DNA from: Saccoglossus kowalevskii
Lineage: Eukaryota; Hemichordata; Enteropneusta; Harrimaniidae
Reading direction: 5' to 3'
DNA length: 23,738 bases
Assembly (NCBI RefSeq): GCF_000003605.2
Contig: NW_003108582.1
Location: forward strand, 344,795-368,532
The notes under the pieces are model-generated. The model saw nothing but the letters and a program-made list of their open reading frames with translations, searched no databases and was not told where the DNA came from. How positions within the stretch are numbered: position 1 is the stretch's first letter; every line of letters starts with the position of its first letter. Positions 1 through 23,738 of this stretch are shown here, in pieces. The position numbers were made by a program, and so were the translations under genes.

Positions 1-420
1 AATCTTGTCATTCATCCTTACCCACATCAGAGCCACCCAATCTTGTCATTCATCCTTACCCACATCAGAGCCACCCTATCTTGTCATTCATCCTTACCCA
101 CATCAGAGCCACCCTATCTTGTCATTCATCCTTACCCACATCAGAGCCACCCTATCTTGTCATCCATTCCATACCCACATCAGAGCCACCCAATCTTGTC
201 ATCCATCCTTACCCACATCAGAGCCACCCTATCTTGTCATTCATCCTTACCCACGTCAGAGCCACCCAATCTTGTCATTCATCCTTACCCACATCAGAGC
301 CACCCTATCTTGTCATTCATCCTTACCCACATCAGAGCCACCCTATCTTGTCATTCATCCTTGCCCACATCAGAGCCACCCAATCTTGTCATTCATCCTT
401 ACCCACATCGGAGCCACCTT
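1..420 (-). repeat. 38-bp minisatellite built from the exon 4 / intron 4 splice junction of the acyl-CoA dehydrogenase gene
   Basis: Eleven tandem copies are seen, with the plus-strand word gagccacc at 30, 68, 106, 144, 183, 221, 259, 297, 335, 373 and 411. The period is 38 bp, with one 39-bp step between copies 4 and 5. The array may continue left of the window. On the minus strand each copy reads GGTGGCTCTGATGTGG then GTAAGGATGAATGACAAG. The first 16 bases are the last codons of exon 4 (Gly-Gly-Ser-Asp-Val-G). The following bases are the 5' splice site and the start of the intron. Copy 11, joined to exon 4, differs by a silent TCC for TCT. Copy 5 has a GTATGG donor and copy 10 has GCAAGG; the other nine keep GTAAGG. 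The periodicity and the exon homology are read directly; any effect on splicing is inference. Confidence 0.95.
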
Positions 421-520
421 TCCTCTCTGTCATCCATTGTCCAGATGTCCAAAACTTGGCTGGATTTCGAGATGTCAATCGTGGATAAGCACGGCCCATC
501 AACACTGGATGTTGTTCTTT
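403..520 (-). CDS. Acyl-CoA dehydrogenase exon 4 (residues 195-234), ends inside the minisatellite
   Basis: The acceptor is TTTGTAG at 521-523, followed by KEQHPVLMGRAYPRLTSRNP, then AKFWTSGQWMTERKGGSDV and the first base of a Gly codon at 403. The donor GTAAGG begins at 402. MTERKGGSDV matches the acyl-CoA dehydrogenase signature 1 pattern (Thr/Ser-Glu-x2-Gly-Gly-Ser-Asp). An in-frame TAG lies exactly in the acceptor, so the exon cannot start earlier. The last 16 coding bases also form the exonic part of the 38-bp minisatellite unit. Confidence 0.9.
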
Positions 521-3500
521 CTACAAATTCAATGTTGGATAAGTCTGTAACTGCACATGAATGGCTTTAAGGATCAACAACACACATTTGAATGGGACTC
601 ATGTGAATACTGTCATGCTGGTTCCAGTTCAAAAGCCACACTTACGGTACAATTATCGATAAAACACAAAATAAATGCACATACTGCTTCTCTCATTTCT
701 GTCAGAGGAAATTAAAACATTTGCATAAACTCTGAAGACTACATTGCTAATTGTTATGCATATCAAATGACGATGAATCTTCAAACATTAATATATGTAC
801 AGCCATCTCAATCGAATCCCTGATATTATTTAAATTGAGTCCCTGAGAAAAATTTACTGTGTATTCACCTCATTTAGATTAAATAATGACCTCATTTACA
901 TATCGAGGTAATACAGATGAATATTGTATCACAGGGAAATATAGACTCAGAGTTTATTGATTACATCAAGTCTCGGGAGTACTTGAACAGTAAGTTAGCA
1001 AACTTGCTGACTACTTCGCTGAAAACTTTGGTCTTGACCAAAACATTTTGCATACTCCAGTTCTGTAAAATCTCATAAACTTATTAACAATATGGATTTT
1101 TAGTTTTTTTTTACTAGCTCTTGGTGGTGACAGAATGAAGAGTAATATTCAAATCATAGTTAATCTCCTTATAATCAAAACTAAATTAGTTGTTGAATTA
1201 GTGAGCTTGTTATCTACTATATTTTCCTGGTGATAAACCAAGGGGTCTCAATATGTGAAATCAGTAAAAGTAAAGCATTGGCATATACCAGAGAAACAAC
1301 ACTAAAAAGATGAAGAATTTTATTTAACATTGTAACCACATTCCCCTGCCAAAAATAATCTCAATGACAATAATTTATTCGCCATTCTGGATTAGAAGGA
1401 ATATTACATCTATTTTGCTGTAAAGTGAATATGATTGCGTATTTACCTTTGGGATCCTGTCAATAACCTGAGCAGCACCATCAGTCATCGCCAACGGACA
1501 CGTGTACAATCCAGAGGATGACGAAAATAGATAGAGCTTTGCAATCTGATACAAACGACTGAAAAAAAAAAATAATTAAGTTCTTAAGGATACTACATCA
1601 CATGTATGTTCTGTGGCTTAAATTACATAATATTGCAGTCAGAACGACAGAATAAGGTATTAATAAAGTACTGGCTTCCATAATACAAACACATCACCTA
1701 TAAAGATCACCAATATTTAAATATGTGAGGTTTTTTTCTCACATGATGTGAATTGAAGTATTTAAGTTTCAAGTACTGGTAATTACTAGTCGTATCAATC
1801 AGGCTATTCCTTGAATCAAAAAGCATGCATATGTTCTTACCTCCATGGTCCATGTTCTCGTTCATACGCTATTGCTACTAGACCTTCGTCAGCCGATATG
1901 TCATGTAATTGCTTCCATGCAGGGCATGTTATCAGTTCGTCTATACGGTTCCCCCATGCATCAAAGTGTTGTACTGTTGGTTGATTCAGTTCGCATTGTC
2001 TTCCGAGTTGATAGATGTCGGTGGCGACACGTTGACCAAACCGTTCTAGATCTGGACTGAACTGATCTAGAATCTAAAGTATGCATAAGCAGAGATACAT
2101 AATTATATTGTATATCTCAATGACTGCATAGAATAGAGGAAATCTGATTTATTAACCTTTTCACCATCAGTACTCGTTTATTGTCCCGTTTATAGTCTGC
2201 ACTTCCCTTCAGAAGTTTGGGAGTAACATAGCCAAACTTTTTGAGAAAAACTGAAAATTTATCCAAACTTTGTCTGTTGGCTCACATGGTTGGCTCTAAA
2301 ATTAAAGTTCATTTCCAGAAATATTGTAGAATAAGACGAAAGTGCAAACAAATTTGGGCAGGAAAGACTGGTGGTGAAAAGATTAAACTGGTATAGTAAG
2401 CCTCACAACAAATAAAAATTACTAATAATTACTATACACATCAGACATGATTTTCTGGTATAGTAAGCCTCGCAACAAATAAAAATTACTAATAATTACT
2501 ATACACATCAGACATGATTTTCTGGTATAGTAAGCCTCGCAACAAATAAAAATTACTAATAATTACTATACACATCAGACATGATTTTCTGGTATAGTAA
2601 GCCTCGCAACAAATAAAAATTACTAATAATTACTATACACATCAGATATGATTTTCTGGTATAGTAAGCCTCACAACAAATAAAAATTACTAATAATTAC
2701 TATACACATCAGACATGATTTTCTGGTATAGTAAGCCTCGCAACAAATAAAAATTACTAATAATTACTATACACATCAGATATGATTTTCTGGTATAGTA
2801 AGCCTCACAACAAATAAAAATTACTAATAATTACCATACACATCAGACATGATTTTCTGGTATAGTAAGCCTCGCAACAAATAAAAATTACTAATAATTA
2901 CTATACACATCAGATATGATTTTCTGGTATAGTAAGCCTCGCAACAAATGAAAATTACTAATAATTACTATACACATCAGACATGATTTTTAAGGTGAGC
3001 AAAATTTTGAACGTTCTTGTTTTTTATTCTACATAAGAACGTTTTTTTCAACACATTGAAATCAATTTTTAAATAGCAAGGCCTGACACCTTTAATAAAT
3101 CTGATATTGTATCACAAATTTGATATTCTGTTTATACCATATACCTGTATTCATTTCACAGCAACAAATGTACATGTAATTTGCTAGCGTATATTGCATA
3201 CTGTGAAATATTTTCGCTTGGAATTAATTTTCACTAATTTTTGCTGAAGGAGTGATTCAGTGAAAATAAAATCCACTGAGTATACCTTTTTTCCTATATT
3301 TTACATTCAACTCGCCATAAACCAGTGAAAATAAATTCCATACAAAACATCCAATGAAAATTAATTCCAGGTAAAGTTAAGTATTTTACAGTAAGGAACT
3401 CTAATTAATGAACAATGATTACCATTACTTTACATTATTGCAATTAGGAAATATAGTCATCTTTAAAGCCATCGATCACTATATTGACAGTTTTCATTAG

Positions 3501-4338
3501 CAACATTAAATATGTTGGGAGAATTTGAATTTATTTTTACACATGTTTTATCGGACATCTGAAACTACCAGAAATGTTTGTACTGATCTAATAATAATAG
3601 ATGAAAAAGATTGGTATAGGATACGTCTGTGAATTAGTACAGAGTTCCCCTTATGTCATGAAATGATCTGATCCAATCAAATAGACTGCCATCCAACGTA
3701 CATGTACATATACATTTCAAGAACAAGTTGAAAAATAGCATATTTTTACTAAAAATGACAAAAATATTTGATAACATTATAAAAAATCTAAATATATGCT
3801 CAAAACAATTAGAGGTCCACCCAAGGTACATGTATACCAATTATCAAACTAATTGAGTTGGGATAAAAGTTTCTACTCTGGACGGACGGACGGACTGTTT
3901 TGGGGCCAGAACGTCCAAACCAGGGCCGGAACGTCTTTTTTTTACCAGGGCCGCAACAAACCAGGGCCGGATCGTCTAGAAATTTGACAGACGGACGAAC
4001 GGAGACCGAATTATACAATTATAAATTGAGCGTTTTGAACTTTGGCGTTCGAATGGGGAATAATAACTTAGCTACTGTGATCACCATATCGATATTCTCA
4101 CCTTTTCAGGGACAACCCGCTTCAGATACGCTCTGAGTGCAGCATCGCCCAAATACTGATTTTCAAGTTGTGCTTCCGCTTGGAAAAACGGACCTCTTTT
4201 TGCTCTGGCGAAGGGCAATGTTTTGGCTCGATCGTCAATTGTTGTATTTTCCGTTTGAACAGTGGCAGCAGTACTCTTCATTCTGATACGACTAAGCGTA
4301 CGAATACCGGAATACTTTAGTCGGTTCATATTTATCAC
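403..4338 (-). CDS. Acyl-CoA dehydrogenase, AidB/ACDH-11 type (5' part of gene, four exons; continues beyond left edge)
   Basis: This flavoprotein family oxidises acyl-CoA. The C. elegans ACDH-11 and bacterial AidB branch is the closest match I recognise. Coding exons are 4102-4338, 1841-2073, 1447-1558 and 403-520. They join at phases 0, 2 and 0, all with GT-AG introns, giving residues 1 to about 234. Residues 1-25 are rich in Arg, Lys, Ser and Thr with no acid, like a mitochondrial presequence. Recognisable family stretches are PDLERFGQRVATDI, QHFDAWGNRIDELIT, EEGLVAIAYE-like (here DEGLVAIAYE), SGLYTCPLAMTDGAA and FWTSGQWMTERKGGSDV. The last is the acyl-CoA dehydrogenase signature at the flavin/substrate site (residues 217-233). 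The catalytic half is outside the window. The start is the first ATG of the exon; a second in-frame Met at residue 4 is possible. Intron 1 holds a 67-bp satellite and intron 4 begins with the 38-bp minisatellite. Confidence 0.9.
521..1446. other. Intron 3 of the acyl-CoA dehydrogenase gene
   Basis: AT-rich sequence between exons 4 and 3 with no further exon, long ORF or clear repeat that I can support. Confidence 0.7.
1447..1558 (-). CDS. Acyl-CoA dehydrogenase exon 3 (residues 157-194)
   Basis: A long polypyrimidine tract ending TTTCAG precedes 112 nt that close at a GTAAAT donor (phase 0). The translation is SRLYQIAKLYLFSSSSGLYT followed by CPLAMTDGAAQVIDRIPK. The CPLAMTDGA segment is highly typical of the family. 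Confidence 0.92.
1841..2073 (-). CDS. Acyl-CoA dehydrogenase exon 2 (residues 80-157)
   Basis: The acceptor is CTTTAG and the donor GTAAGA; the exon is 233 nt and ends two bases into codon 157. The translation includes ILDQFSPDLERFGQRVATDI, then FDAWGNRIDELITCPAWKQL and ADEGLVAIAYEREHGPW. It follows exon 1 in phase and keeps the order seen in AidB/ACDH-11 proteins. Confidence 0.92.
2388..2990. repeat. 67-bp satellite, nine exact copies, in intron 1 of the acyl-CoA dehydrogenase gene
   Basis: Units start at 2388, 2455, 2522, 2589, 2656, 2723, 2790, 2857 and 2924. All nine are 67 bp with no indels. Copies differ at few sites: cctcac versus cctcgc, and agacatg versus agatatg, plus single changes in copies 7 and 9. 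Each unit contains the inverted pair GTATAGTAA and TTACTATAC (in the first unit 2391-2399 and 2429-2437), so each copy could form a 9-bp stem. Confidence 0.97.
2991..4101. other. Remainder of intron 1, with a small GGAC/ccagggccgg repeat patch
   Basis: Mostly AT-rich noncoding sequence. At about 3878-4005 there is a GC-rich patch with three GGAC repeats, the word ccagggccg three times, and a second gacagacggacgaacgga run near 3987. It resembles the end of a short interspersed or foldback element, but no terminal repeat or target duplication could be defined. Confidence 0.45.
4102..4338 (-). CDS. Acyl-CoA dehydrogenase exon 1 (residues 1-79)
   Basis: The ATG at 4336-4338 opens 79 codons, ending PEK at a GTGAGA donor (phase 0). 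The N-terminus has Arg6, Lys8, Arg13, Arg17, Arg19 and Lys21 and no acidic residue, as expected for a mitochondrial presequence. It is followed by TKxLPFAR-like and FFQAEAQLENQYLGDAALRAY, the conserved entry segment of this family. Upstream noncoding sequence contains a TATATA-like tract around 4355-4365. Confidence 0.88.
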
Positions 4339-6039: not shown

Positions 6040-6612
6040 ATACTATGGTGAGAAATGCTTCCTTCAACTGAATATTGTGTCAGAAGAATTTTAGTGAGTT
6101 TAGTACTCTCAAATGTGAGAAGAGTTTTTTTTTTCAGTCTGCTAAATCTTATACTGCTCAAACCAACACATACATCTTAGAAGCCTTATCATTGTGACCC
6201 GTGTGACAAGCGATTTACCCAATCAAGTGCACTAATATAATGATTCATATAAGAACAATGCAATAGGAGTTTAACTCAGTCAAATCATCTCAAAGAGCAT
6301 ATGTGAACACATACCAACAAAAAGTCTTATTAGTGTGAGAAAAGTTTTAGTTGGTTAGGTAGTCTCAAACAGCATATGCGAACACATACAAATGAAAAGC
6401 CTTATCATTGTGAGCAGTGTGAGAGAAGTTTTACCCATTCAAGTACTTCAAAATATCATATGCGAACACACATTAAAGAGAAGTCTTATCATTGCGAGCA
6501 GTGTGAGAAAGGTTATGATTGGTTAGGTAATCTCAGCATATGCAAAGGCATGCCAATAAGAAGCGGTATTATTGTGAACAATATAAGAAGAGTTATGATA
6601 TATAGAAGATAA
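6040..6612 (+). pseudogene. Decayed C2H2 zinc-finger gene fragment
   Basis: The plus strand shows successive 28-residue finger units with HMRTHTNEKPYHCEQC-type linkers. Only one finger is complete: CEQCERSFTHSSTSKYHMRTH at 6409-6471 (C-x2-C-x12-H-x3-H). Upstream fingers carry stop codons and lost Cys or His: KPYHCDPCDKRFTQSSAL at about 6180-6236 is followed by stops, and CQKNFSEFSTLKCEKSF near 6079-6130 lacks its His pair. The following finger (CEQCEKGYDWLGNL) has a 4-bp deletion before the His pair, so the frame is lost and the open frame ends at 6612. No start region was found. C2H2 proteins of this type bind DNA, but this copy cannot make a full protein. Confidence 0.8.
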
Positions 6613-6711: not shown

Positions 6712-7161
6712 TAAGAAGAGTTATGATTGGTTAGGTAATCTCAGCATATGCAAAGGCATGCCAATAAGAAGCGTTATTATTGTGAACAATATAAGAAGAG
6801 TTATGATTGGTTAGGTAATCTCAGCATATGCAAAGGCATGCCATTAAGAAGCGTTATTATTGTGAACAATATAAGAAGAGTTATGATTGGTTAGGTAATC
6901 TCAGCATATGCAAAGGCATGCCAATAAGAAGCGTTATTATTGTGAACAATATAAGAAGAGTTATGATTGGTTAGGTAATCTCAGCATATGCAAAGGCATG
7001 CCAATAAGAAGCGTTATTATTGTGAACAATATAAGAAGAGTTATGATTGGTTAGGTAATCTTAGCATATGCAAAGGCATGCCAATAAGAAGCGTTATTAT
7101 TGTGAACAATATAAGAAGAGTTATGATTGGTTAGGTAATCTCAGCATATGCAAAGGCATGC
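6712..7161 (+). repeat. 80-bp satellite made from a broken zinc-finger unit
   Basis: The word ttatgattgg recurs at 6721, 6801, 6881, 6961, 7041 and 7121, exactly every 80 bp, giving about 5.6 copies. Each copy encodes the remnant YYCEQYKKSYDWLGNL and, after a frameshift, HMQRHANKKR. The second Cys of the finger is Tyr. The unit equals the 84-bp finger repeat of the adjacent relic with a 4-bp deletion (ctcagcatatg in place of ctcaaacagcatatg). A progenitor copy is present at about 6505-6605, about 110 bp before the array. Confidence 0.93.
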
Positions 7162-11000: not shown

Positions 11001-14000
11001 CGCACTCTGTACAAACGAATTATCGTGACTGTAATGTTAGTAAACAAAAATAACAATTATTGGCGGTTCGCAATATCTTTGACTTGTAACATTTCGATCT
11101 GTAGTCATTCGTCAATAAAAGAAAATAATGTTATTGACAGAATTATTTTATTGTGAATGACAAAGCGACTACACAACCACACTATTGTTACTTTGAACAA
11201 CATTATTTTCATTCAAGTTAAAGGGCGGCAGTCGTCGTGCCGCGTCTTGTTCGATATGGGACTCATAGCGACGTATACAACGCGTGTAAAATGCATTGTT
11301 TATTTACATAAAATTCGAACACGCGCTGCGCGACAACCACCGCGCTTTAACACTCTGTTGTTGGGTACACTAATTTGAAATCTGAATTTGTAAAATTTTT
11401 GAAAACAAGTTGCCTTATGGAAGATGACACCCACTAACACGTCTGGACTCGGCATGCATAAGCAAAAATTGTGTACTACCGATCATTTCATGTTGCACAC
11501 ATATGCAATGCATTGTGGGAGAGAATTCTATAATGAAACTGACTAAAAGGTCAATGTTTTAACTTCAAGATTTATATGATAAATAAATACAATGTTTTTT
11601 CATCACATGTTCGAGATATCAAGATAGAATTTCATCATACAAGGCAATACACAACAGCAAACAATATGACCAATTTCCATGACATTTTCAAACCTTGTTA
11701 CCCGAGTGGCCCCAACAAGAGTGAGATAATATCTCTGAGTGGTGCCAACAAGAGAGGCAGATAATATTAACCCTGCGTGAATCAACAAGAGAGGGAGATA
11801 ATATTTTTTTTCAAATAATTTTTGGTCTAATTTAGCTTTTTTGATTATTTTAGCACATTTTGCTGGTAAAATGAATTATACTAATTCCATGTTGCTAGAA
11901 AGTTCTCAAAGATTTGTCAGATGCCCCACATTCTGTTTTCACTTTTCAGCATACTAATGACATTAAAGCGCGGTAGTCGTCGCGCTGCGCATGTGCGAGA
12001 TGTATGGGTCTCGTATAAACAAAGACGGCGACTTTGATTATTGCGCAGATCAACGAGTAAGAACTGAGACGTTTCCAAACTTTAATTAAGTAATTTTAAT
12101 GTTATTGGAAGGTATCGAAGGAGTCACCGGCGGCAATCAGTGCAAGTCGCGCCAAGGTCAAACCTCATACTTGTGATTTCTTTTTGAAGACCTCATTGAA
12201 TTGTTGGAAAATCAATGTTTATCAACACAAATGTCGCACATGCACAGCGCAACAACTACCGCGCTTTAACGCAAAATAATGAATATCTTGTTGTATAATT
12301 CTAATTCGACCGAACCTTCTTAAAAGTCTACTCACGCTGTATATAGGCAATTTTTCGAGTTGGAATCCTGGATAACATCTAGGACATGTAAGTAGTGCCA
12401 ACGCAAGAAATGGACAGGCCAATTATTTGAATAGACAAACTCCCCTCCAACGTCCATATCATTTCCATCGATCCACCAATAGTCTGTATCGATTACAAAA
12501 ATAAAAATAACTATAATATCTGTTTTTATGAGAATGAAATTATTCAACGTTTGATAATATTACTTGTAATAAAGATAAGGAGTATATATCTTACAGATAC
12601 AGTATACATCGTGCAAACACTGTACAATTCTGGCGAGGACACAACACACAGACACAAGTATAAATAGACAGCACTCTAAAATATAGACTTTAAAATATAG
12701 CCAGGCCATGTGGATCACATGAGGAATATGTGTGTGAAGTCTGAATGTGATACTTTTTTCTTGAAGGTCTATTGCAAAAAACATGCACATATTGTGATCA
12801 TAACCGTTGACATTTGTGGAGATAAATATTGTTTTTCCCACAATCCAATGCGCTTTTATAATGAGTGCGAGTTTTAGGCACCACATGCCTAAATTACCAC
12901 CGGCGACTTAATTAAAGCTTGGTAATATCTCACTTTTTACTTAGGTCTGTGCAACAGTCAAAGTCGCAACCTTTGTTTATATGAGACCCATATCTCGCGC
13001 ACATAGACACCATGTGTGTAACGTTTGAAGGCGGTAGTTCCCCTCTTGGAGTTCCATTACGAAAGACAAGCATTCATTTGAACTTTTGAATGCAATTTTG
13101 TGGCGTTGGTTTTTGTTTTTTCTCCTTTGAGAGATATATTGGGACCATGCACACTCGTACAACAATGAACGCTCTGCCTGAGTAGATAAATACAAATTAC
13201 TTTATGTATATTATTCAAGTTGATTACTGTGATCAGTAGACAACCTTGACGCCGAAATATTTACACGTGTTTCATTTTGATCTCAAAACAGAATTGGGCG
13301 TAGCATATATTCCTTATTCACTCACTGAATGGCAAATTCGAGCCTTTATACGTAGATTGGGCCTGTGTACTAGTGGTGATAACATAACTGAAGTAGACCA
13401 ATCCTCCATCTGCAACATTGTCCTATTTGGTTTGTAGAGGGATATGCCATCTCTTGGTCGTACTGGCCTGCCCTATCAATTCTACTTCCACCCGTACATT
13501 GGCACTACTGTAGTGATTAAAGCGAGGGAGTTGTCGCCTGCCCTAGCGTCAGATGGCCATAGTGTGTCATTGTTTACAAACAAGTGTCTAACCATGAGCC
13601 TTTGCGTTTTAGCGTGTGTTATCATCGCTTGGAACTCAATTCTCGCGCGTGCGCAGGTGACGAGCCTCCCGCTTTACATTATCAAACTTTAGCAGCATGA
13701 TAAAGTGAACGTACACGACTTGTGGGTTTCTTTTGAGACTTTGCACCAAGACTAATGAGAGAAATTGGAACAGTATTTTATGGGCAAAGACAAGTCACGT
13801 TGTTCTTGTATATGTCAATGAGATCTCGACTGCGATTTGCGTCAAAGGTAAATGCTAAAATTTGATATAGTCACGCGCAGTTTCGCTAAAAATTTGTAAC
13901 GCCATTTATGAAGGACAGGTGATAGTGCAAATAAAACACACCTACTATATTCAAAACAGTTGACAACAATTTAATCTGAATCTGAATTAGTTTTGGCCTC

Positions 14001-17000
14001 AAGGATACCCAATTCTAAATAAAAAAATCATGAAAACTTATTGAATTATCTAACCATCAAGAATCTTCAAACAATTTAGTGTTTCTATAGCAACCGAATC
14101 CAAATATCTACCAACAAATAATTGATAAGCTCGTGTCCCAATTTAAACTCCAAAAACAAATCATAAAAATTATGCAGCGGTGTGTTGACCTATAGCATTG
14201 GCTGTTCTGTCTCACCTGTGTCAATGCCAGCTTGCATTCGAAGTAAGACAAACAACACGTATTCTGGTTCGCTCCTCATCCTTGCTAGATGACCACCCTC
14301 GCTAACGCAGTAGTTCTGCGCGTCTTGCCATGACATCATTTGAAGCACAACGCGATAAGAAACTTCTTGATCTGTCGAGAAAGTAAATAATACCGTTTGT
14401 AAGTCAATATGCAACATAAACATTTATTTTCCCACAATCCAATGCGCTCTTCTAATGGAAATCATCACGAGTAACGTGACGGGTTTTCACTATGGCGCGA
14501 CGTCCAATAATTACCACCGGTGACGCCTTCGACACTTTCCAAACACAAAAAAAAAAAATACCTAGTTATAGCTTGGTCTGTGCAACAGTCAAAGTGGCCA
14601 TCATGGTTGTGTAACTGTTTATCATTTAGCATATACAGTATGTCTCTCCAAACAATATGCATCAAAACTGTAAACGACGATGCGAACTTGCGGCGTAACT
14701 TTCACACAGGCTACAACACAGAAGCGCCGGTCACGTCACCAGAGGTCGTGACTGTAAAAAATGTATTCTAATGGGTCGTTGGCCGCACTTACTATCGCAC
14801 TACTTCTCTTTATTAAGCTCTTAAAGACGAGTCTGCGTTTGGATATTTGATCAATTGTTCTCAATGAGGTTCAGCGCATTTTAACATGCAAGTGGGCATG
14901 TCTTTAAAAGCAGTGGCGGTGGCACCGGGGGCAGAGGGCGGTTACCCATCCAAAATAATTGTTGAATGGAGCCCGCCCCCCCCAAAAAAAAATCAAGCTG
15001 AAACCCTTTGTGTCAGCAAAATTGTCCCCTCCAAATTCAGGAAATAGCGTTTCAGAGGGTCTAGATTTCAGATCTCTCGTGCGAAATTTCGTTCCGCCGC
15101 TTTTGCTTTACAAAATGCAGGAACACATAATAAAATGTTATGCTAACATATCAACGCAAGCCTTTAAGTACTAGTACTTAAACCCCTGTTCACACGGTAA
15201 ATTGTTCTCACGGTGACTGGCTTGATGTTATAACCAGCCCGGAGTAAAATCACTGTGTATTCAATCACAATATTTGTCAAAATTGGCCATATCTCCTGAA
15301 AGATCTGGATACTCCTGACACAACAATATTCATGTATGGCGTCGTTTTGATCTGTAAACAGTCAGGTTATTGTTTCCCCAAAAATACAGTTGCAAACTCA
15401 ATAACTAAATGCTAAAAATAATCACAATACCTCATTAATATGTACTTACTGTATTCACATAGATATGCTCGCATGTTATCACAGTGTGTGTCGTACCACA
15501 TGACATCGTCTCTGCAAGTACACATGACAAACACTTTAAATTAACAATTGTTATGGGAACTCAGTGTCGGTATACATTTTCAGGCGTACTTGAAGTAATT
15601 TGCATATAACACTTATATAGAGGCTATACAAGGCGTGTATCTTGACTAAAACACAAATTTCCGTGTAATGTGAACGTTGTTTTCGATGTGGATTTGGATT
15701 TTAGTTACAAGGTAGAATTGTGTTTAGGTATTTGCCGTTGGTAATGTCATATGTTTTGTTATGCCTGATACTAGTACATTCTGGCATAATTGAAACTGGC
15801 GATAATAATTGTCTCATGTTTTTTTACCTGTTTAATTTAATATTAATCGATATATATCGCCATGGCAATCGTATTCGTCTAATAAAAGTCACAAATTATA
15901 ATTATTTATAACACAATCATGATCAGTACATAATAAAACGATTGGTCAACATTTCTTAGATTAAAGCGGGGAGTCGTCACCTGCGCATGCGTCAGATGGC
16001 CATAGCCTGTCATTGTTTACAATCAAGCGTCTACTCATGAGCCTTTGCGCCTTTTACATTAGTTGTTTTATCGTGGCTTGGAACACAATTCCCGCGCGTG
16101 CGTAGGTGACGACCCTCCCGCTTTAAGTTTCCGATGGCAATGTGGTCGATCTGCAACAGTTGTGTAACAATTTGTGAGCCAGTTATTGTGGCCTGATTTA
16201 ATAATATAATCGTATGAAAATCAATCTAATATTCCCTAAAGTTAACACACCCTAATAATTTACGTTTGTATTGTTGAGCTTCTAGCACAACGGTTTGATT
16301 TTCGGGGTGGGAAATAAGTGACATATTTGTTATTGTTGAGAAATTGCATAAACGTTTCCACCGGAAATTCACATCCGTGATCTTTTGCTTTCATTGCCCC
16401 TAGTCGATAAATTTCCTCTGATTTGGAACTTACTGGATATCCATGTGAGCACAGTCTTCTTCCATTGACGAAAGCATTCCGTTATCGGGTTGACCAATTG
16501 CCCAATGATCAAATACGAGTGGTTCGCCGTCACTATGACGCCAATCATCTTCTGTGTCTATATCATTGATGTCGATCCAAATAGGTTCTGATGATAGATG
16601 CAGCAGGATATGACGTCAGGGTTACGAATAACGTATGTGTAAATATGTTTTACTCTAGTGGTAACGGTATTTCCTCTAACTCTCATGTCAAATTGTTTTT
16701 ACTGCATACATATACACGACCATGCGAGTATAGACTGAAGCCCTTGTTGGCATGGAAATAGCACAATTTTCTCAAGTTCAAAAAAATACTCATTTAATTT
16801 CTACAGGTATTTTTTTTCAATTTGTCATTGTATAAACACTCAATATACAAGACAATGATGACAAGATGTGACCATGTATATATTTCAAGACGTGCACGCC
16901 AGGATGTTCCTCGTCAAAAAGTTTTGCACATTTGTATGTATGTTTTACAATTTCTGTACTAATTTTGCTTCAAGTGAATAAAATATTCCATTGGCTACAA

Positions 17001-20000
17001 TTCTTTATTTATAATTTATTATAAAAAAACTATTTATTTTATTCAGAGAAAAGCGACAGAAGTGGCCTTCGGCCTTCAAACGGATGAACTGGAACGAGGA
17101 GGCAAACACCATGAATTAACATCTCCGTAGAGGACAGTGTGTATTATTCATACTTACTTGTGTTTTCGATTCTATCATCAAGGACGATTTCTCTTAGGAA
17201 CGTCAACATGCTTTCATTGGCAACTTTTACCAGACTACCACCATTGCTTTGACACTCCTCGGATGCTCCATGCCACGTCTTCCACGAATTGAGATACTTA
17301 TATAACTTACCGTCGCGAGGTAGCCACAGTGCGGCAGAAAGTGGATCTAGTGGGGGAAAAAATATAAGTACAATATAAGTGTCTGTGACTTCAAAATAAC
17401 GTACTGTATTTGGCGAAACCTCAGGCCTGACTGTCTGTGATAACTCAAGCAATTATAGAAGAATTATAATTACAATCAATTACATGTTTGGACGGGTCAG
17501 ATGAAAGTTTTTGGAAGCGTTCTTCATCATTTTGAGATTACACAACAATTTTGTGTGAAAGCTAGTTGCCATGGGAACAGTATTTTTGGAAGGAGTCTTC
17601 ATCATTACCAGATAACTCAAGTAGTTATTTACGAATTTTCAGGAAAAATTGCCCGGAGACACCTGACGGACCAAACGTTCTGAGAATTCTGGATACGGGT
17701 GCGATTCTTCACAATTGCCAGATAGGGTCATTGCGAGGATAAGTCACGGTAGAATGCAGCTGTTTGTTGCGTTTGTGATATCGGGGTGCCTTCTAGATTC
17801 AAAAGTGGCACATCTCTCTAAATGACGGGTGGCCTCACTATAGACGTTGTGAATCGCGTTAATCGGACCAATTTGCGTCACATAACATGAGCGGATTTAG
17901 AGGGAGCCGAGGGGGCCGCGGCCCCCTTATTTTCAACAACCAACAGGGCTTCGCGCCATCGGCGCTGGCGAACTTGGCCTTCGGCCAACTTATCGGCCCC
18001 CCCTTTTTCGGATTCCTAGATCCGGCCCTGCATAATCCCTTCGTCTATGTAGAATATGAAATCACACGTTTTGAAGAGTAGCATATAATTGTTGTCTATT
18101 CGTTATGTAAGTAAATTCACAGATGGGTGTCACGTGATTGGTCAATTGTAGCAATCACCGGGTTGTGTAATATGTATATAATTGCGTCGTCTGTGTGACG
18201 TGTAACCAATCTATGAGTTCTTACTTTATATCACGACAGTAGCGTGTGAAGTATTCAATACACCTCTAGTACATTTGTGAGCAACCGAGTAGTTTCGATT
18301 CAAGTGTTCGAGTACATAATACCTTGAAGTTGCGCCCTCTAGCGATTGAGCACTTCTGTGAGTGGCGTGAATAGACACAAGGGTGCCGTTAATGGGCTAC
18401 GGCGTCAATATTGTTTTAATCTGTATTTATATATATCACAGTCCCTCTACAACTTTAGAGGGACTGTGTATATATATAATATTTGCTATTTTTATAACAA
18501 AGAGAAAGCAATATACAACCAACAGAGCTGTTTATATGGAAAACATCACATACACCAATCTGCGCGGTAGTCAATGCGAAGCCACTTATAAGACTGTGCC
18601 CGATTCTTTGCATATATATATATAGCCTGCAAACTAAGAACTGATACTTACCGACATAGCAGAGAAATGCGTGTGTTTGCTCGCAGTCCACAACATACCA
18701 TTTTCCCTGATCGGATATATTACTAGATACAACGACATATACTAATATTAGTAGGCGTATTGTTTAAGACAAATAGGCATGTTTGTAAATCGTATATCCT
18801 CGTACACGTTTAGTTGTTTCTAGTCTAGCTACCCCAGCTTAAATTATGACACATCCGTCTACATTGTCTCAATCGAATCAGACTATGCTGAGGGTTGGGC
18901 GTATTATCTCGAAAATGAAATGTAGACAATAAAGGGAGATCGCGTCGGATTTAAGTTGTAAAAAATATCACAAATGATTTGTGATGTGAGCTTTTTTTTT
19001 ATTTTATCTAAATATTTTTTTAAAATAAAAAGTTTATTTTGAACTGGCTATGTGTGTGCAAGTCAAGTTTAACATTTTATTGTCAGCGTTTAAAATTATT
19101 TTTTTCTAATATTGTCCTGCCGTTCTTATATCTATTTCCCAAAAGTGTTCAAAATGACTAGTATATTTAACGCATGTTTTATGCTGGATGTTCAATTTTA
19201 TAATTCCATATTTATCTTGTTGGATGTTTAGTGTATAAGCTTCACCTTTTTTCAATTTAAAGAGAACAAATAAAAACAGTATATTCTTACATGATAACAC
19301 ATTCTTCGCTCCCGGCATTGTCGTTGGGTTGGCCATATGCCCAGTTATTTGCGTCAGGAATTGCATTATCGGTATAGCGGAAGTCGCCATCTGTGTTTAA
19401 ATCATTGAGTCCGATGTATAGATGAGAAATAGGCGTTCCTTGAAAAGGGAAATTAGTTATTAGTTGGTTAATGCAGTACTCGGAATAAAGAAGAAAAACA
19501 TATTCGATGAACAAATAAAAAAACTAAAACTGTGATTGTTCGAAGCAATTAAATCTGAAGGAATGTTTTACCGTTTTCACTTAACGAATGTTACATATTA
19601 TTTAAATCCAAACGCGAGGTCGTGATTGGCACGAACGCCCTCATTCTGTGAGACACGTTTATACACGGATGACAAAACTGTGCAGAGCGTAGAGATCCAC
19701 AGACACCACATACTAAATATTCACTCAGAATCAAAAAGTAACTGGAAAGCATGAGTAAACATCGTAAAAGTCTGTCATGTGTTAGGAGAGGATTTTACTA
19801 CTGTAACAGTTGTTAGAAACGCGTAAATTGCCTTTTTGTTACTCTAAGGAATATTTGTTGCATAAAAAAATTTAAAATTTCGTAATTGTCGTTTCTAATA
19901 ACACATACATGCGATGCAACATGGCTGATAGATCGGACTTGTTTCGGAAAGCGTTGTTGTTCCCGTCAGGTACATTAATATTATGTATTATTGTTGTATT

Positions 20001-21393
20001 GGACTGGTGTACTTTTTGTTTCTAGCAAAAAAAAAATCATTCATTTGTTATGTGTCGATCAACAACAACGTGTTTCCTTGACATCGTACACATTCAATAA
20101 CTTCAGTGGCACTACCCCCGCAGTAACTGCGACAACGAGCACTCAAATAACTAAACTTTCAGATATCTTGCCTGTGGCAAACGTTGCAGGGCGCAGCTTT
20201 AGAATTTGTGTTAATTTTAAAGAACCACTCACAGTTAGAATTCTCAAATTTCAGACGCAACATAGTACACACTTACCAACATAGCATCATTTCGAGCATT
20301 TGATTTTAAGAGATACCCTAGAGTCAAAAAGTATTGTAACAATCCGGGGATTTGACCATGCAGTGTATTACATTTCAGTTTACTTGTTACCATGGTGACA
20401 GTGTATACTAACCATCATCGTGGACCAACTGGATGGCGTAAGCTAACAGCATAGCGGTAATATCAGTTAGAGACAATGATGGCAGTTTGGCAAGTTCGCC
20501 GTAATATGATTCACACTGTTGACGAGCCTCTGCCCATGTTGCTTTCTCCGTGAATATCAAATAGTTTTCCGTGGCGCTGAGGATCGCTCGTTTACTTCTT
20601 CCTGAAAGAATCACATTTTGATTTTTTATTCCGAATAAAGTTGCTACCAGATATACTTATGAATTTCTGGTGATTAGAAAAAAAATCGTATTTTGTCACA
20701 ATTAACATACGACAAGAGAATGTGTACATGATACGACTTAATCTGAATTTGTCCCCAAATGAGTATTTGGTTGTCGATGCAACATTGCGTGTTGCGGCGA
20801 GCATCTCCTATTGTTTGATATTGTTCCCATTGTATTGTATATCGTAACAGAAGTCGTTTTCAAATCTAGAAACGTTTTTTTTTCAACTTTTAAGCCACTT
20901 AAAAAGGTGATATTGGAATGATATAAATGAAAAATGTGAAATTTTAGCCTACGTGAATACTGACACGTAATAATAAATATTTCGTGAATATGGCGGCGTT
21001 ATTGATTTCTAGTTGAATATTTGCGTGTCCAATGAACCATCTAATGTATCAACACATTCTTTTCCAAACTTTCCTTAATTTTGTCAAATTTGATCATGTT
21101 TACGTGTTTCAATCCACATAATGCACAAACCTGAAATTTGTATTTATATTATACGAATTTGTAACACTAAAATGAATTTTTAGCTCAGATAGTAAACACA
21201 TTAAAATTAAACTTTGAAGTACTAATACTTATAATAAGTAAAAACAAAATATTCAGGAATGTTTTCATAAAATACGAATTGTTGATGTTTCAAACGATAT
21301 TAGCAAGCATACCAGCGTAGACTCACCATGTGGCAGACTGGAGGTTATGATAACCATGGAGGCCACCAATATAAGTACGGTGACAAACTTCAT
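7876..21393 (-). CDS. Type I membrane receptor with three C-type lectin domains (complete, 12 coding exons, 532 aa)
   Basis: Exons (minus strand order): 21327-21393, 20413-20601, 19291-19438, 18652-18722, 17158-17346, 16434-16587, 15450-15511, 14216-14371, 12336-12483, 10958-11028, 8917-9105, 7876-8030. All 11 introns are GT-AG and phases join without a stop, giving 1599 nt. Layout: signal peptide 1-19; RSKR 24-27; CTLD1 about 28-158; CTLD2 about 160-293; CTLD3 about 295-418; Thr-rich stalk 419-490; membrane helix about 491-514; tail KKLTKRDDNSVNPKERPR. Each lectin domain has the four short-form cysteines (52/132/148/156, 190/267/283/291, 315/391/407/415). Such proteins sit at the cell surface and bind sugar, lipid or protein ligands; the ligand here is unknown. 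NxS/T sequons are at 136, 202 and 456. The 5' UTR and promoter were not resolved. Introns 1, 2, 3, 5 and 11 show nothing recognisable. Confidence 0.92.
8031..8916. other. Intron 11 of the lectin receptor gene
   Basis: AT-rich sequence with no repeat, exon or element that I can support. Open frames here have no family resemblance. Confidence 0.7.
8917..9105 (-). CDS. Lectin receptor exon 11: Thr-rich stalk (residues 419-482)
   Basis: 189 nt, phase 1 to phase 1. It begins DEAWYTTDADTTEATTTSTT, then has about 40 residues rich in Thr, Ile and Val with a sequon at 456, and ends TTVPTTRTYEET. This is a probable O-glycosylated stalk lifting the lectin domains from the membrane. Acceptor TTAAAG is weak in pyrimidines, but the phase fits on both sides. 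Confidence 0.85.
9480..10490 (+). mobile_element. Possible solo LTR in intron 10 of the lectin receptor gene
   Basis: The order of signals resembles a retrotransposon LTR. There is a TATAAATG box at about 9837, then about 500 bp of noncoding sequence, an AATACAATAATAG poly(A)-like tract near 10353-10366, and tcctgtgttcgtgtcg just after it. The stretch ends in a CGGCCGTAAC-type tail near 10476-10485. No matching second LTR, internal gag/pol or clear 5-bp target duplication was found, and both ends are uncertain. Confidence 0.3.
9499..9705. promoter_or_regulatory. Two opposed CTCF-like motifs in intron 10
   Basis: GCGCCATCTAGTGA (9499-9512, motif on the minus strand) and TCACTAGAGAGCGC (9692-9705, plus strand) fit the CASYAGRKGGCGC-type core with zero and one mismatch respectively. 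They point away from each other. They may simply be the inverted ends of a small element or part of the possible LTR. Confidence 0.3.
10958..11028 (-). CDS. Lectin receptor exon 10: CTLD3 last third (residues 395-419)
   Basis: 71 nt, phase 2 to phase 1, the same length as exon 4. It reads HDNSFVQSAGDCNEEHYFVC then QFG. There is no WND motif; the two last cysteines (407, 415) are present. Confidence 0.9.
11218..11350 (+). mobile_element. MITE, subfamily 1, internally deleted copy (133 bp)
   Basis: It begins TTAAAGGGCGGCAGTCGTCG and ends CGCGACAACCACCGCGCTTTAA-like (last 20: CGACAACCACCGCGCTTTAA), an imperfect inverted repeat of about 28 bp flanked by TTAA. Interior words such as tatgggactcata match the 307-bp copy at 11963-12269. 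Confidence 0.75.
11963..12269 (+). mobile_element. MITE, subfamily 1, longest copy (307 bp)
   Basis: The left end TTAAAGCGCGGTAGTCGTCG continues through gcatgtgcgag. The right end reads as its reverse complement with about four differences over 38 bp. Both ends are TTAA. It has no coding capacity and lies 67 bp from lectin exon 9, in intron 9. Confidence 0.85.
12336..12483 (-). CDS. Lectin receptor exon 9: CTLD3 middle third without sugar motif (residues 346-395)
   Basis: 148 nt, phase 1 to phase 2, the same length as exon 3. It reads DYWWIDGNDMDVGGEFVYSN, then a segment with no EPN or QPD triplet (RWHYLHVLDVIQDSNSKNC). The WIGL-like core and Cys391 are kept. A calcium-dependent sugar site is therefore unlikely. 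Confidence 0.9.
12800..13020 (-). mobile_element. MITE, subfamily 1, eroded inverted copy
   Basis: Interior words of the 307-bp element recur in reverse: gacatttgtggagataaa, cccacaat, attaccaccggcgac, ctgtgcaacagtcaaagt, tttgtttatatgagaccc. The terminal repeats are no longer clear, so the ends are approximate. It lies in intron 8. Confidence 0.65.
13517..13677 (+). mobile_element. MITE, subfamily 2 (161 bp)
   Basis: Starts TTAAAGCGAGGGAGTTGTCG and ends GACGAGCCTCCCGCTTTAC, an inverted repeat of about 30 bp; the right TTAA has become TTAC. The interior is about 75-80 percent alike to the copy at 15961-16126 by eye. Confidence 0.85.
14216..14371 (-). CDS. Lectin receptor exon 8: CTLD3 first third (residues 294-346)
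   Basis: 156 nt, phase 1 to phase 1, preceded by CGACAG. It reads NQEVSYRVVLQMMSWQDAQN, YCVSEGGHLARMRSEPEYVL. Cys315 and the Trp-x2-Ala helix are clear. It is 33 nt shorter than exons 2 and 5, with the difference mainly before the helix. Confidence 0.92.
14400..14610 (-). mobile_element. MITE, subfamily 1, second eroded inverted copy
   Basis: It shares with the copy at 12800-13020 the words ttttcccacaatccaatgcg, attaccaccggtgacg and gtctgtgcaacagtcaaagt in the same order. It starts about 30 bp upstream of lectin exon 8. Terminal repeats are missing. Confidence 0.65.
14917..15110. mobile_element. Possible degenerate GC-ended repeat element in intron 7
   Basis: A GC-rich left end (gcggtggcaccgggggcaga), a C8A9 run, and a right end with ttccgccgctttt suggest weak inverted termini. 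No target duplication could be seen. Confidence 0.25.
15450..15511 (-). CDS. Lectin receptor exon 7: CTLD2 last third (residues 273-294)
   Basis: 62 nt, phase 2 to phase 1. It reads DDVMWYDTHCDNMRAYLCEY with the last two cysteines and WYD in place of WND, so Trp and Asp of the calcium motif are kept. Acceptor TTGCAG, donor GTAAGT. Confidence 0.9.
15961..16126 (+). mobile_element. MITE, subfamily 2 (166 bp)
   Basis: Starts TTAAAGCGGGGAGTCGTCAC and ends GACGACCCTCCCGCTTTAA, with TTAA at both ends. Interior words atggccatagcctgtcattg and catgagcctttgcg are shared with the copy at 13517-13677. It lies in intron 6 of the lectin gene. Confidence 0.88.
16434..16587 (-). CDS. Lectin receptor exon 6: CTLD2 middle third with QPD motif (residues 222-273)
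   Basis: 154 nt, phase 1 to phase 2. It includes PIWIDINDIDTEDDWRHSDG and HWAIGQPDNGM, then MEEDCAHM. QPD (254-256) is the galactose-type triplet of calcium-dependent lectin domains, and Glu-Asp-Cys precedes the conserved third strand. Confidence 0.92.
17158..17346 (-). CDS. Lectin receptor exon 5: CTLD2 first third (residues 159-222)
   Basis: 189 nt, phase 1 to phase 1, the same length as exon 2. It includes ALWLPRDGKLYKY and TWHGASEECQSNGGSLVKVA with Cys190, then a helix FLREIVLDDRIENT. A sequon (Asn-Glu-Ser) is at 202. Confidence 0.92.
17890..18031. mobile_element. Short MITE with GGATTTAG / GGATCTAG termini in intron 4
   Basis: The left end agcggatttagaggg...gggggccgcggccccc and the right end ggcccccc...tcctagatccggccct are inverted repeats with mismatches. 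The interior contains perfect small hairpins such as ttggccttcggccaa. The termini resemble those of the element at 7262-7415. Confidence 0.55.
18437..18468. repeat. Perfect 13-bp hairpin in intron 4 of the lectin gene
   Basis: CACAGTCCCTCTA (18437-18449) and TAGAGGGACTGTG (18456-18468) are exact reverse complements around the 6-nt loop caactt. Both are flanked by TATATA runs that could extend the stem with a bulge. It is too short as seen to call a microRNA precursor. Confidence 0.85.
18652..18722 (-). CDS. Lectin receptor exon 4: CTLD1 last third (residues 135-159)
   Basis: 71 nt, phase 2 to phase 1. It reads INISDQGKWYVVDCEQTHAF then LCYV. The WND calcium motif is WYV here, so the second calcium site is probably lost. 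The acceptor is the TAG at 18723-18725; the nearer CAG at about 18706 is rejected because it breaks the phase with exon 3. Confidence 0.88.
19291..19438 (-). CDS. Lectin receptor exon 3: CTLD1 middle third (residues 86-135)
   Basis: 148 nt, phase 1 to phase 2. It includes LYIGLNDLNTDGDFRYTD (the WIGL-like core) and NWAYGQPNDNAGSEECVI. The sugar-selectivity triplet position reads QPN rather than EPN or QPD. Cys132 is the third-from-last conserved cysteine. Confidence 0.92.
20413..20601 (-). CDS. Lectin receptor exon 2: CTLD1 first third (residues 23-86)
   Basis: The acceptor is TTTCAG and the exon is 189 nt, phase 1 to phase 1. It begins GRSKRAILSATENYLIF and continues TWAEARQQCESYYGELAKL, the alpha-1 segment with Trp45, Ala48 and the first Cys (52). 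RSKR (24-27) lies a few residues after the predicted signal cleavage and fits the furin R-x-K-R pattern. Confidence 0.92.
21327..21393 (-). CDS. Lectin receptor exon 1: signal peptide
   Basis: The ATG at 21391-21393 begins MKFVTVLILVASMVIITSS, a classic short n-region, hydrophobic core and small-residue cleavage site. It ends PHG at a GTGAGT donor in phase 1. An upstream in-frame Met (from 21534) would bury this signal peptide, so the 21393 start is preferred. Confidence 0.9.
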
Positions 21394-22381: not shown

Positions 22382-23644
22382 ATAAAGACTCATAAGGAAT
22401 ACTCATGTCACCAGATGACACATGGCAACAAAATTAACTCGAAAGACGTAAGTTGATAAATATAGTAGACAGCATCGTACATTAATGATATACACACTCA
22501 CGTGACGTTTTGAAAGGGATTTTACAACTCCAAGGATATAAAACAAACAACTTACAAACAAACAGAAACAACAATATACACTGCAATACATGATAAAATC
22601 AGTGAGTGACAGATGATACATGTAAAAGAGTTGACACATCCTGTTCCACATATGATATCCGCCACATATCAGTCAAGCGACATGGATACAATCTGGGACA
22701 TCTTTATAATGGTTGTCATAGTCAAAAATAACCTGTTCAATGTAATGGAAGCTTTTGTTTAGTAACCATTGCATCGATAGTTTGAACAATAAAAATAGCG
22801 TATCTTTAAAACTGAAATTGTTCTACAAGTAGCAAGTGCGATAGGAAATGTATATCCTACAATGATGGTAAAGTTGAAATCATATCGTGTGTTGTTTTTG
22901 TCATACAGAGTGATAGAAAGCCAATCATATTAATTTCAAGGTCATTTAGTATATAATTAATAGGGGTTTCATTTAATGTAATACAAGTTATAAAATACGA
23001 GTTATCTAACACTACTGAAATATGCACGACTTTGGGGTGTGTTTGAACATTACTAGTATTAGAAACAGTTGTTTATTTGTCATGATATTGGTATGCGTAG
23101 CTAAGGCAACTGCAATTAGTAACACTGATAAACAAATCGTTGTCAGTTTACAGCATTTGCGCTACATATAGAGAATGGCATTTGATTGGCATGTGCAGGT
23201 ATGAAGGCGTTATCAATACTTTGAATCCCTATCCTTGTGTATTGAAGCCAGAAATCAAGGGTCTCTAACTAGAGGCAGTCTGTAAGATTGTCTTCGTGAG
23301 ATGCAAATGCAAATCTGTGCAATTCGCTGTACATTCCCTCTACTGGAAGAATCTTGTTAACTCGACACTCTCTATCTACCCATTTTCACGGAACAGTGAT
23401 CTGTTATCACGTTCAGCCTTTTGAATAGGCTGCAGTGCTGTAGTGTTCGTCCAGGCAAATTTGGCAAAAAGAAATATTTTCATTTTAAAGAGCCCTTTGA
23501 ATCAAGAATATTTTTGAGAGAACCCCAATTTCACCGATAAACCAATTGACAATTCCAAAATAATAGGGCTTAGAGGAAACATTGGTATTCTTCCAGCAAT
23601 GAATAACTAACTGTTATGTTATGTTTTCGGTGGTTATAGTTAAT
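22382..23644. other. Intergenic sequence with nothing recognised
   Basis: AT-rich, without a supported exon, RNA gene or repeat. It lies upstream of the lectin receptor gene and may contain distal regulatory sequence. Confidence 0.5.
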
Positions 23645-23738
23645 TTAAAGCAGGGGGTCGTCACCTGCGCACGCGCGGGAATTGAGTCCCAAGCGACGAT
23701 AACACACGCTAAAAACGCAAAGGGTCATGGGTAGACCC
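23645..23738 (-). mobile_element. MITE, subfamily 2, copy cut by the window edge
   Basis: TTAAAGCAGGGGGTCGTCAC followed by ctgcgcacgcgcgggaattg and gcgacgataacacacgct is the reverse complement of the right half of the copy at 13517-13677. The other end lies outside the window. Confidence 0.8.

Follow-up and report, generated by a model that had tools for sequence, protein, structure and literature searches.

The first 418 bases of the window (the whole stretch of DNA analysed here, 23,738 nucleotides long) hold at least eleven tandem copies of a 38-bp unit that covers, on the minus strand, the end of a predicted acyl-CoA dehydrogenase exon and the start of the intron behind it. We consider this array, with a probability of roughly 0.8, to be a "mirage", a splice-junction minisatellite—one that arose through slippage or unequal exchange and that is removed together with the intron by way of the first donor. 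It is a real further example of a rare, known kind of repeat, in a gene family for which no such report was found. The array offers a clean natural series: its donors are almost identical and spaced by 38 nt, and the first alone preserves the protein. Should transcripts show that donor to be the only one used, the array would be a strong test case for the way in which the spliceosome selects one among many equal donors.

The host gene and the predicted end of exon 4

Homology places the array in an acyl-CoA dehydrogenase gene of the ACDH-11/AidB type. The minus-strand gene model comprises four coding exons (230 codons plus one base); all four have GT donors, and exons 2 to 4 have AG acceptors. 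The sequence-only reading had named the exon in question as exon 4 of an acyl-CoA dehydrogenase; the family holds and is refined here to the ACDH-11/AidB branch, while the exon number is a predicted one that takes the model's first plausible ATG as its starting point. The features on which the argument draws are:

4102..4329, minus strand: exon 1, 228 nt, starting at the first plausible ATG
1841..2073, minus strand: exon 2, 233 nt, from the gene model
1447..1558, minus strand: exon 3, 112 nt, from the gene model
403..520, minus strand: predicted exon 4, 118 nt, with acceptor ttgtag, a phase 0 start and a phase 1 end, from the model and homology
1..418, minus strand: 38-bp minisatellite, 11 copies in the window, from TRF and the copy table, running from the exon end into the intron that follows
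381..418, minus strand: copy 1, with the exon end at 418-403 and donor GTAAGG at 402-397; the sole TCC copy
343..380, minus strand: copy 2, with donor GCAAGG
152..190, minus strand: copy 7, 39 nt, with donor GTATGG

The best structural match of the modelled product is C. elegans ACDH-11 (PDB 4y9j; E 1.4e-54, residues 37-230), followed by a bacterial probable acyl-CoA dehydrogenase (6sd8, E 1e-45), AidB (3djl, E 6e-9) and 5ez3 (E 2.5e-8), and the product also carries a Pfam AidB_N domain (E 2.7e-17); these E-values are those of a model with R for S at the exon 2/3 joint and one extra terminal residue. All of the structural matches named reach the last whole codon of exon 4, which codes KEQHPVLMGRAYPRLTSRNPAKFWTSGQWMTERKGGSDV plus a G, the first base of the next codon. 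WTSGQWMTE and GGSDV are identical in all six aligned sequences (i.e., the window product and five prokaryotic relatives, hand-picked out of the 80 loci kept), and in each of the five relatives a G comes right after GGSDV and the coding sequence continues. The window exon ends in GATGTGG, with GTAAGG behind it—that is, in GGSDV plus a G able to start a glycine codon—and its match to the glycine continuation in the relatives lends good support to the predicted end of the exon at 403. On the same grounds of homology and frame, the copy attached to the rest of the exon (418-381) would be the real exon end, in agreement with the sequence-only reading, which had counted it as the eleventh.

A close paralogue of exon 4, which might have shown an unrepeated junction for comparison, was not found when the exon's peptide was searched against the 572-Mb assembly: apart from its own locus (E 1.3e-22), the peptide had one further match, at chance level (E 6.1).

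The remaining portion of the gene presumably lies in the run of N that begins where the window does: window base 1 is C288:344795, and C288:273614-344794 is 71,181 bases of N (the first 300 bases past the other window end are also N). Across the assembly, PF00441 (12 matches) and PF02770 (6 matches) gave none on C288, and a query for the 3' half of the gene with the C-terminal part of an archaeal homologue gave, in an uncontrolled search, two matches only (E 0.0135 and 0.367, on C2592 and C3), both of these contigs also matching PF00441. The middle and C-terminal dehydrogenase domains were, in this uncontrolled search, not found in the assembly, and the place where they would be expected is N. 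Tandem arrays flank both edges of the 71-kb run, those at its far edge (L024 7948-8313, C288:273248-273613) having units of 32 bp (10.3 copies) and 22 bp (3 copies); given these far-edge arrays, a gap caused by repeats fits.

Other repeats lie nearby. Intron 1 of the same gene holds a 67-bp minisatellite (nine copies, 97% match, 2388..2990, minus strand) that blastn does not match to any of the four coding exons. An 80-bp minisatellite at 6712-7161 (5.6 copies, 98% match, plus strand) resembles the neighbouring C2H2 zinc-finger ORF at 6334-6612. The period of C2H2 zinc fingers is 84 nt; as 80 does not divide by 3, the 80-bp copies are mutually out of frame, and the array looks like a decayed zinc-finger gene, made of coding sequence. 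Minisatellites are locally not rare, with four arrays of at least five copies in 65,208 bases, a non-random sample in which the window holds three of the four and 11 fetched loci hold one. Elsewhere in the window, a dispersed element at 13515-13676 is 83% identical to 15959-16125 and in part 90% identical, inverted, to 23641-23736, with weaker relatives recognised by eye near 11220, 11960 and 12240; and five of the stretches tested show C-type lectin domain similarity (14193-20656, minus strand), one above the Pfam cut-off and four below it. Together with the introns and the C2H2 zinc fingers, these lectin domains suggest that the genome is an animal's.

Structure and variation of the array

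TRF places the array at window 2-418 with a period of 38 bp, 10.9 copies and a 95% match (score 755); for such an array chance can be set aside. When split at GGTGGCTC on the minus strand, it resolves into 11 copies. Nine have 38 nt; one has 39 nt, and another, shortened by the window end, has 37 nt. We number them from the exon, copy 1 being 418-381 and copy 11 being 37-1. The eleven tandem copies first read from the letters are confirmed, as a minimum: because window base 1 touches the N run, the copy number is at least 11.

In all eleven copies, read on the minus strand, 16 nt matching the coding exon end are followed by a donor or donor-like hexamer and about 16 nt more of intron, so the composition first proposed for the unit (16 nt of exon end plus about 22 nt of intron from the 5' splice site) stands as described in the copy table. 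The exon-matching part is GGTGGCTCYGATGTGG, with one further change in copy 5 (GAT to GAC). The proposed ladder of GTAAGG donors is borne out in 9 of the 11 copies and fails in two: copy 2 has GCAAGG and copy 7 has GTATGG, so that GT itself is kept in 10 of 11. Copy 7 (190-152) owes its 39 nt to a one-base insertion. Leaving this insertion aside, bases vary in 6 of the 38 columns (2/16 in the exon part, 2/6 in the donor hexamer and 2/16 in the remaining intron part), and the donor hexamer is not specially preserved relative to the rest of the unit.

Private differences occur in copies 1, 2, 5 and 7, and one difference is common to copies 6 and 7. Copy 1 alone has TCC, where the ten others all have TCT. 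With a single site, and with the outer edge of the array beyond the window, the evidence is thin, but the pattern is the one expected of an array that homogenises internally and leaves its edge copy aside.

Two units used as a DNA query against the 572-Mb assembly returned 8 matches, all within the array, and the reading of the 38-bp repeat as a dispersed element was rejected on this result; the search skips very common words and is no proof that the array is unique.

Donor choice and competing explanations

As a U1 match, donor 1 does not fall short of the other donors in the gene. The predicted duplex with the U1 5' end, a matter of sequence match only, has -9.7 kcal/mol in 9 of the 11 copies, the real donor included, compared with -9.6, -9.6 and -6.8 kcal/mol for the three other donors in the gene; in the two remaining copies, with their changed donors, it has -5.0 and -7.3 kcal/mol. 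Reading through past donor 1 gives GGSDVG-KDE-stop. This stop is a TGA, exon codon 44, four codons past the glycine of GGSDVG. Each of the ten exons that donors 2 to 11 would produce contains it in frame, irrespective of exon length modulo 3. Because each of these donors adds the in-frame TGA, none could yield a full-length isoform, and the length-variable alternative splicing suggested by the sequence-only reading is unsupported.

These observations fit the following course of events under the mirage explanation. A 38-bp stretch (16 nt of exon end, the donor and 16 nt of intron) would first have been duplicated in tandem, and the duplicated unit would then have been multiplied and homogenised through slippage or unequal exchange. 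Judging from protein homology, the transcript probably uses donor 1, which is attached to the exon body and would keep the frame into the next exon, and the other copies, at least 10 in number, would leave with the spliced-out intron. An mRNA with a premature stop is expected to be destroyed by nonsense-mediated decay. Use of a downstream donor would bring in the TGA present in the sequence, and the resulting mRNA would be expected to be degraded, so that the extra copies may be neutral at best and a mild burden at worst. Against the mirage explanation, donors of equal strength spaced by 38 nt ought to compete, and exclusive use of the first is unexplained by the sequence; PMC3087553 itself allows that copies with splice signals could act as cryptic sites, and human repeats at exon-intron boundaries can change splicing (PMC2812944).

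A rival explanation is an array of U1 decoys, or of donors for unproductive splicing. The extra donors would capture U1 snRNP or be spliced in, and how large a part of the mRNA carries a premature stop, and hence the enzyme level, would track copy number; the nine equal U1 duplexes agree with it, and the ten downstream donors, all reaching the same TGA, would be "poison" donors. There are precedents for repeats that act on splicing: in the account of PMC4526556, two downstream repeat units of the human IFI6 minisatellite are used as donors, and in that of PMC2812944, internal tandem repeats at exon-intron boundaries in human segmental-duplication genes can change splicing. Against this stand the donor positions of the array, which are at least as variable as the other positions, and its RNA folding, which is no better than that of shuffled sequences (z 0.45; 67 of 100 shuffles equal or better). 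The amphioxus papers on mirages likewise hold that regular splicing is left undisturbed (PMC3087553, PMC3902484). Variation and folding together are evidence against a selected decoy or switch, and leave the U1 decoy role put forward in the sequence-only reading unsupported; we consider this explanation unlikely. Its most specific form, a copy-number-variable "poison donor" rheostat in which repeat length sets the amount of active ACDH-11-like enzyme in each individual or cell, is less likely again. If it were true, mirages would gain a function and would perhaps exist outside lancelets, and the control of fatty-acid breakdown or desaturation would be affected.

A different proposal is compatible with the mirage explanation and concerns origin only: nearly the whole 38-bp unit may be exon-derived, an older exon tail plus donor having lost three bases, diverged and multiplied. 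In the exon frame, the unit reads, by eye, MTRLGGSDVG or MTR-stop-GGSDVG against MTERKGGSDVG. When the 22-nt part was aligned, anchored, to the stretch of the same exon directly before the repeated 16 nt, 93, 15, 10 and 0 of 1500 random 30-mers of the window (taken outside 1-531) did as well as the majority, ATAG, copy 6 and copy 7 variants, in that order. Shuffled pieces of the exon, however, equalled the same four variants 195, 80, 30 and 3 times in 1500, and the unanchored majority unit was equalled by 655 of 5000 shuffles of the unit and 1154 of 5000 shuffles of the exon, so that its likeness to the exon is not significant. The strong case comes from a single aberrant copy, copy 7, chosen after the fact, and we regard an exon origin of the whole unit as possible yet doubtful. 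Separate mini-introns between the copies were also considered and rejected, the intron part being 22 nt long and, by eye, without a pyrimidine tract. As a rule of thumb, 22 nt is too short for a separate intron.

The position of the array at a contig end raises the question of an assembly artefact, with reads collapsed or falsely multiplied: the array directly adjoins the 71-kb N run, and the opposite edge of that run is likewise a tandem array. Assembly commonly stops at repeats, and repeats are usual at contig ends. The private differences of copies 1, 2, 5 and 7, and the one shared by copies 6 and 7, are unlike a stuttered single read, and we find an artefact quite improbable. Still less credible is a repeat that is coding sequence on the plus strand. 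On the plus strand all three frames run open from the start of the window until they reach stops whose last bases lie at 488, 550 and 570; since a stop is absent from every plus frame of the 38-nt unit, these open frames come free. They end shortly past the array, any start would lie beyond the window, and the homologous exon is on the minus strand. The mirage explanation, with removal of the array through the first donor, is the one we carry into the comparison with known systems.

Comparison with known repeats at splice junctions

Tandem repeats with donor sequences have a place in models of intron gain. PMC3087553 discusses a model in which introns are gained through tandem duplication of AG/GT proto-splice sites, and potato RdRp is reportedly a case of intron gain by tandem duplication (PMC4974935). 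The window array resembles this model in that a duplicated donor-containing segment is its raw material; unlike the model, the array shows no new intron. The human internal tandem repeats of PMC2812944 are minisatellites too, with units averaging about 30 bp and some of them at exon-intron boundaries, but they are tied there to new introns and alternative transcripts in recent duplicates, whereas the window exon is without a close paralogue.

Turri, Cuin and Porter reportedly found in 1995 that the minisatellite of human IFI6 (6-16) provides multiple splice donor sites. The 1995 paper on this minisatellite is among the references of PMC2572611. IFI6 and the window array have in common tandem repeats at an exon end with donor sequences, which in the window are a sequence match; they differ in that the downstream repeats of IFI6 are used and give isoforms, whereas each downstream donor of the window array gives an in-frame stop.

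The closest counterparts are the amphioxus mirages, minisatellite-like tandem duplications over exon-intron boundaries, as PMC3087553 and PMC3902484 describe them. The cases given there are Adh3, troponin C and the globins BflGb6 and BflGb9, with PGBD5 likened to them; PMC3902484 is the source that adds PGBD5, and it cites troponin C. The sequence-only reading knew of no described case in this gene family, and for the family this stands: in the literature searched, mostly at the level of titles and abstracts, no splice-junction minisatellite in the ACDH-11/AidB family was recognised. The phenomenon itself, however, is known, from the amphioxus mirages and from IFI6. The mirages described belong to other gene families, and the cases considered are all in amphioxus; if the host of the window is not a lancelet, splice-junction minisatellites arise outside the group in which mirages were named. 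Lancelets have many GFP genes; a search for the GFP family gave no match in this genome, nor in any of 14 control genomes, and makes a lancelet host less likely.

Mirages and the window array agree in the main features. Both consist of a tandem minisatellite-like unit over an exon-intron boundary (the exon being assigned by homology in our case), and in both many copies, though not all, keep the splice signals, as GTAAGG is kept in 9 of 11 here. Normal splicing of the mRNA and array lengths that differ between haplotypes or cells are further marks of mirages. The unit lengths given for the Adh3 mirage, 10-72 bp, include the 38 bp of the window unit. In copy number the window array, with at least 11, exceeds the 2-7 of the globin and PGBD5 cases. 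PMC3087553 also describes, for the mirage of the BflGb6 globin, an edge copy that stands outside the evening-out, and the window array is alike in this respect, its own edge copy differing at the one TCC site.
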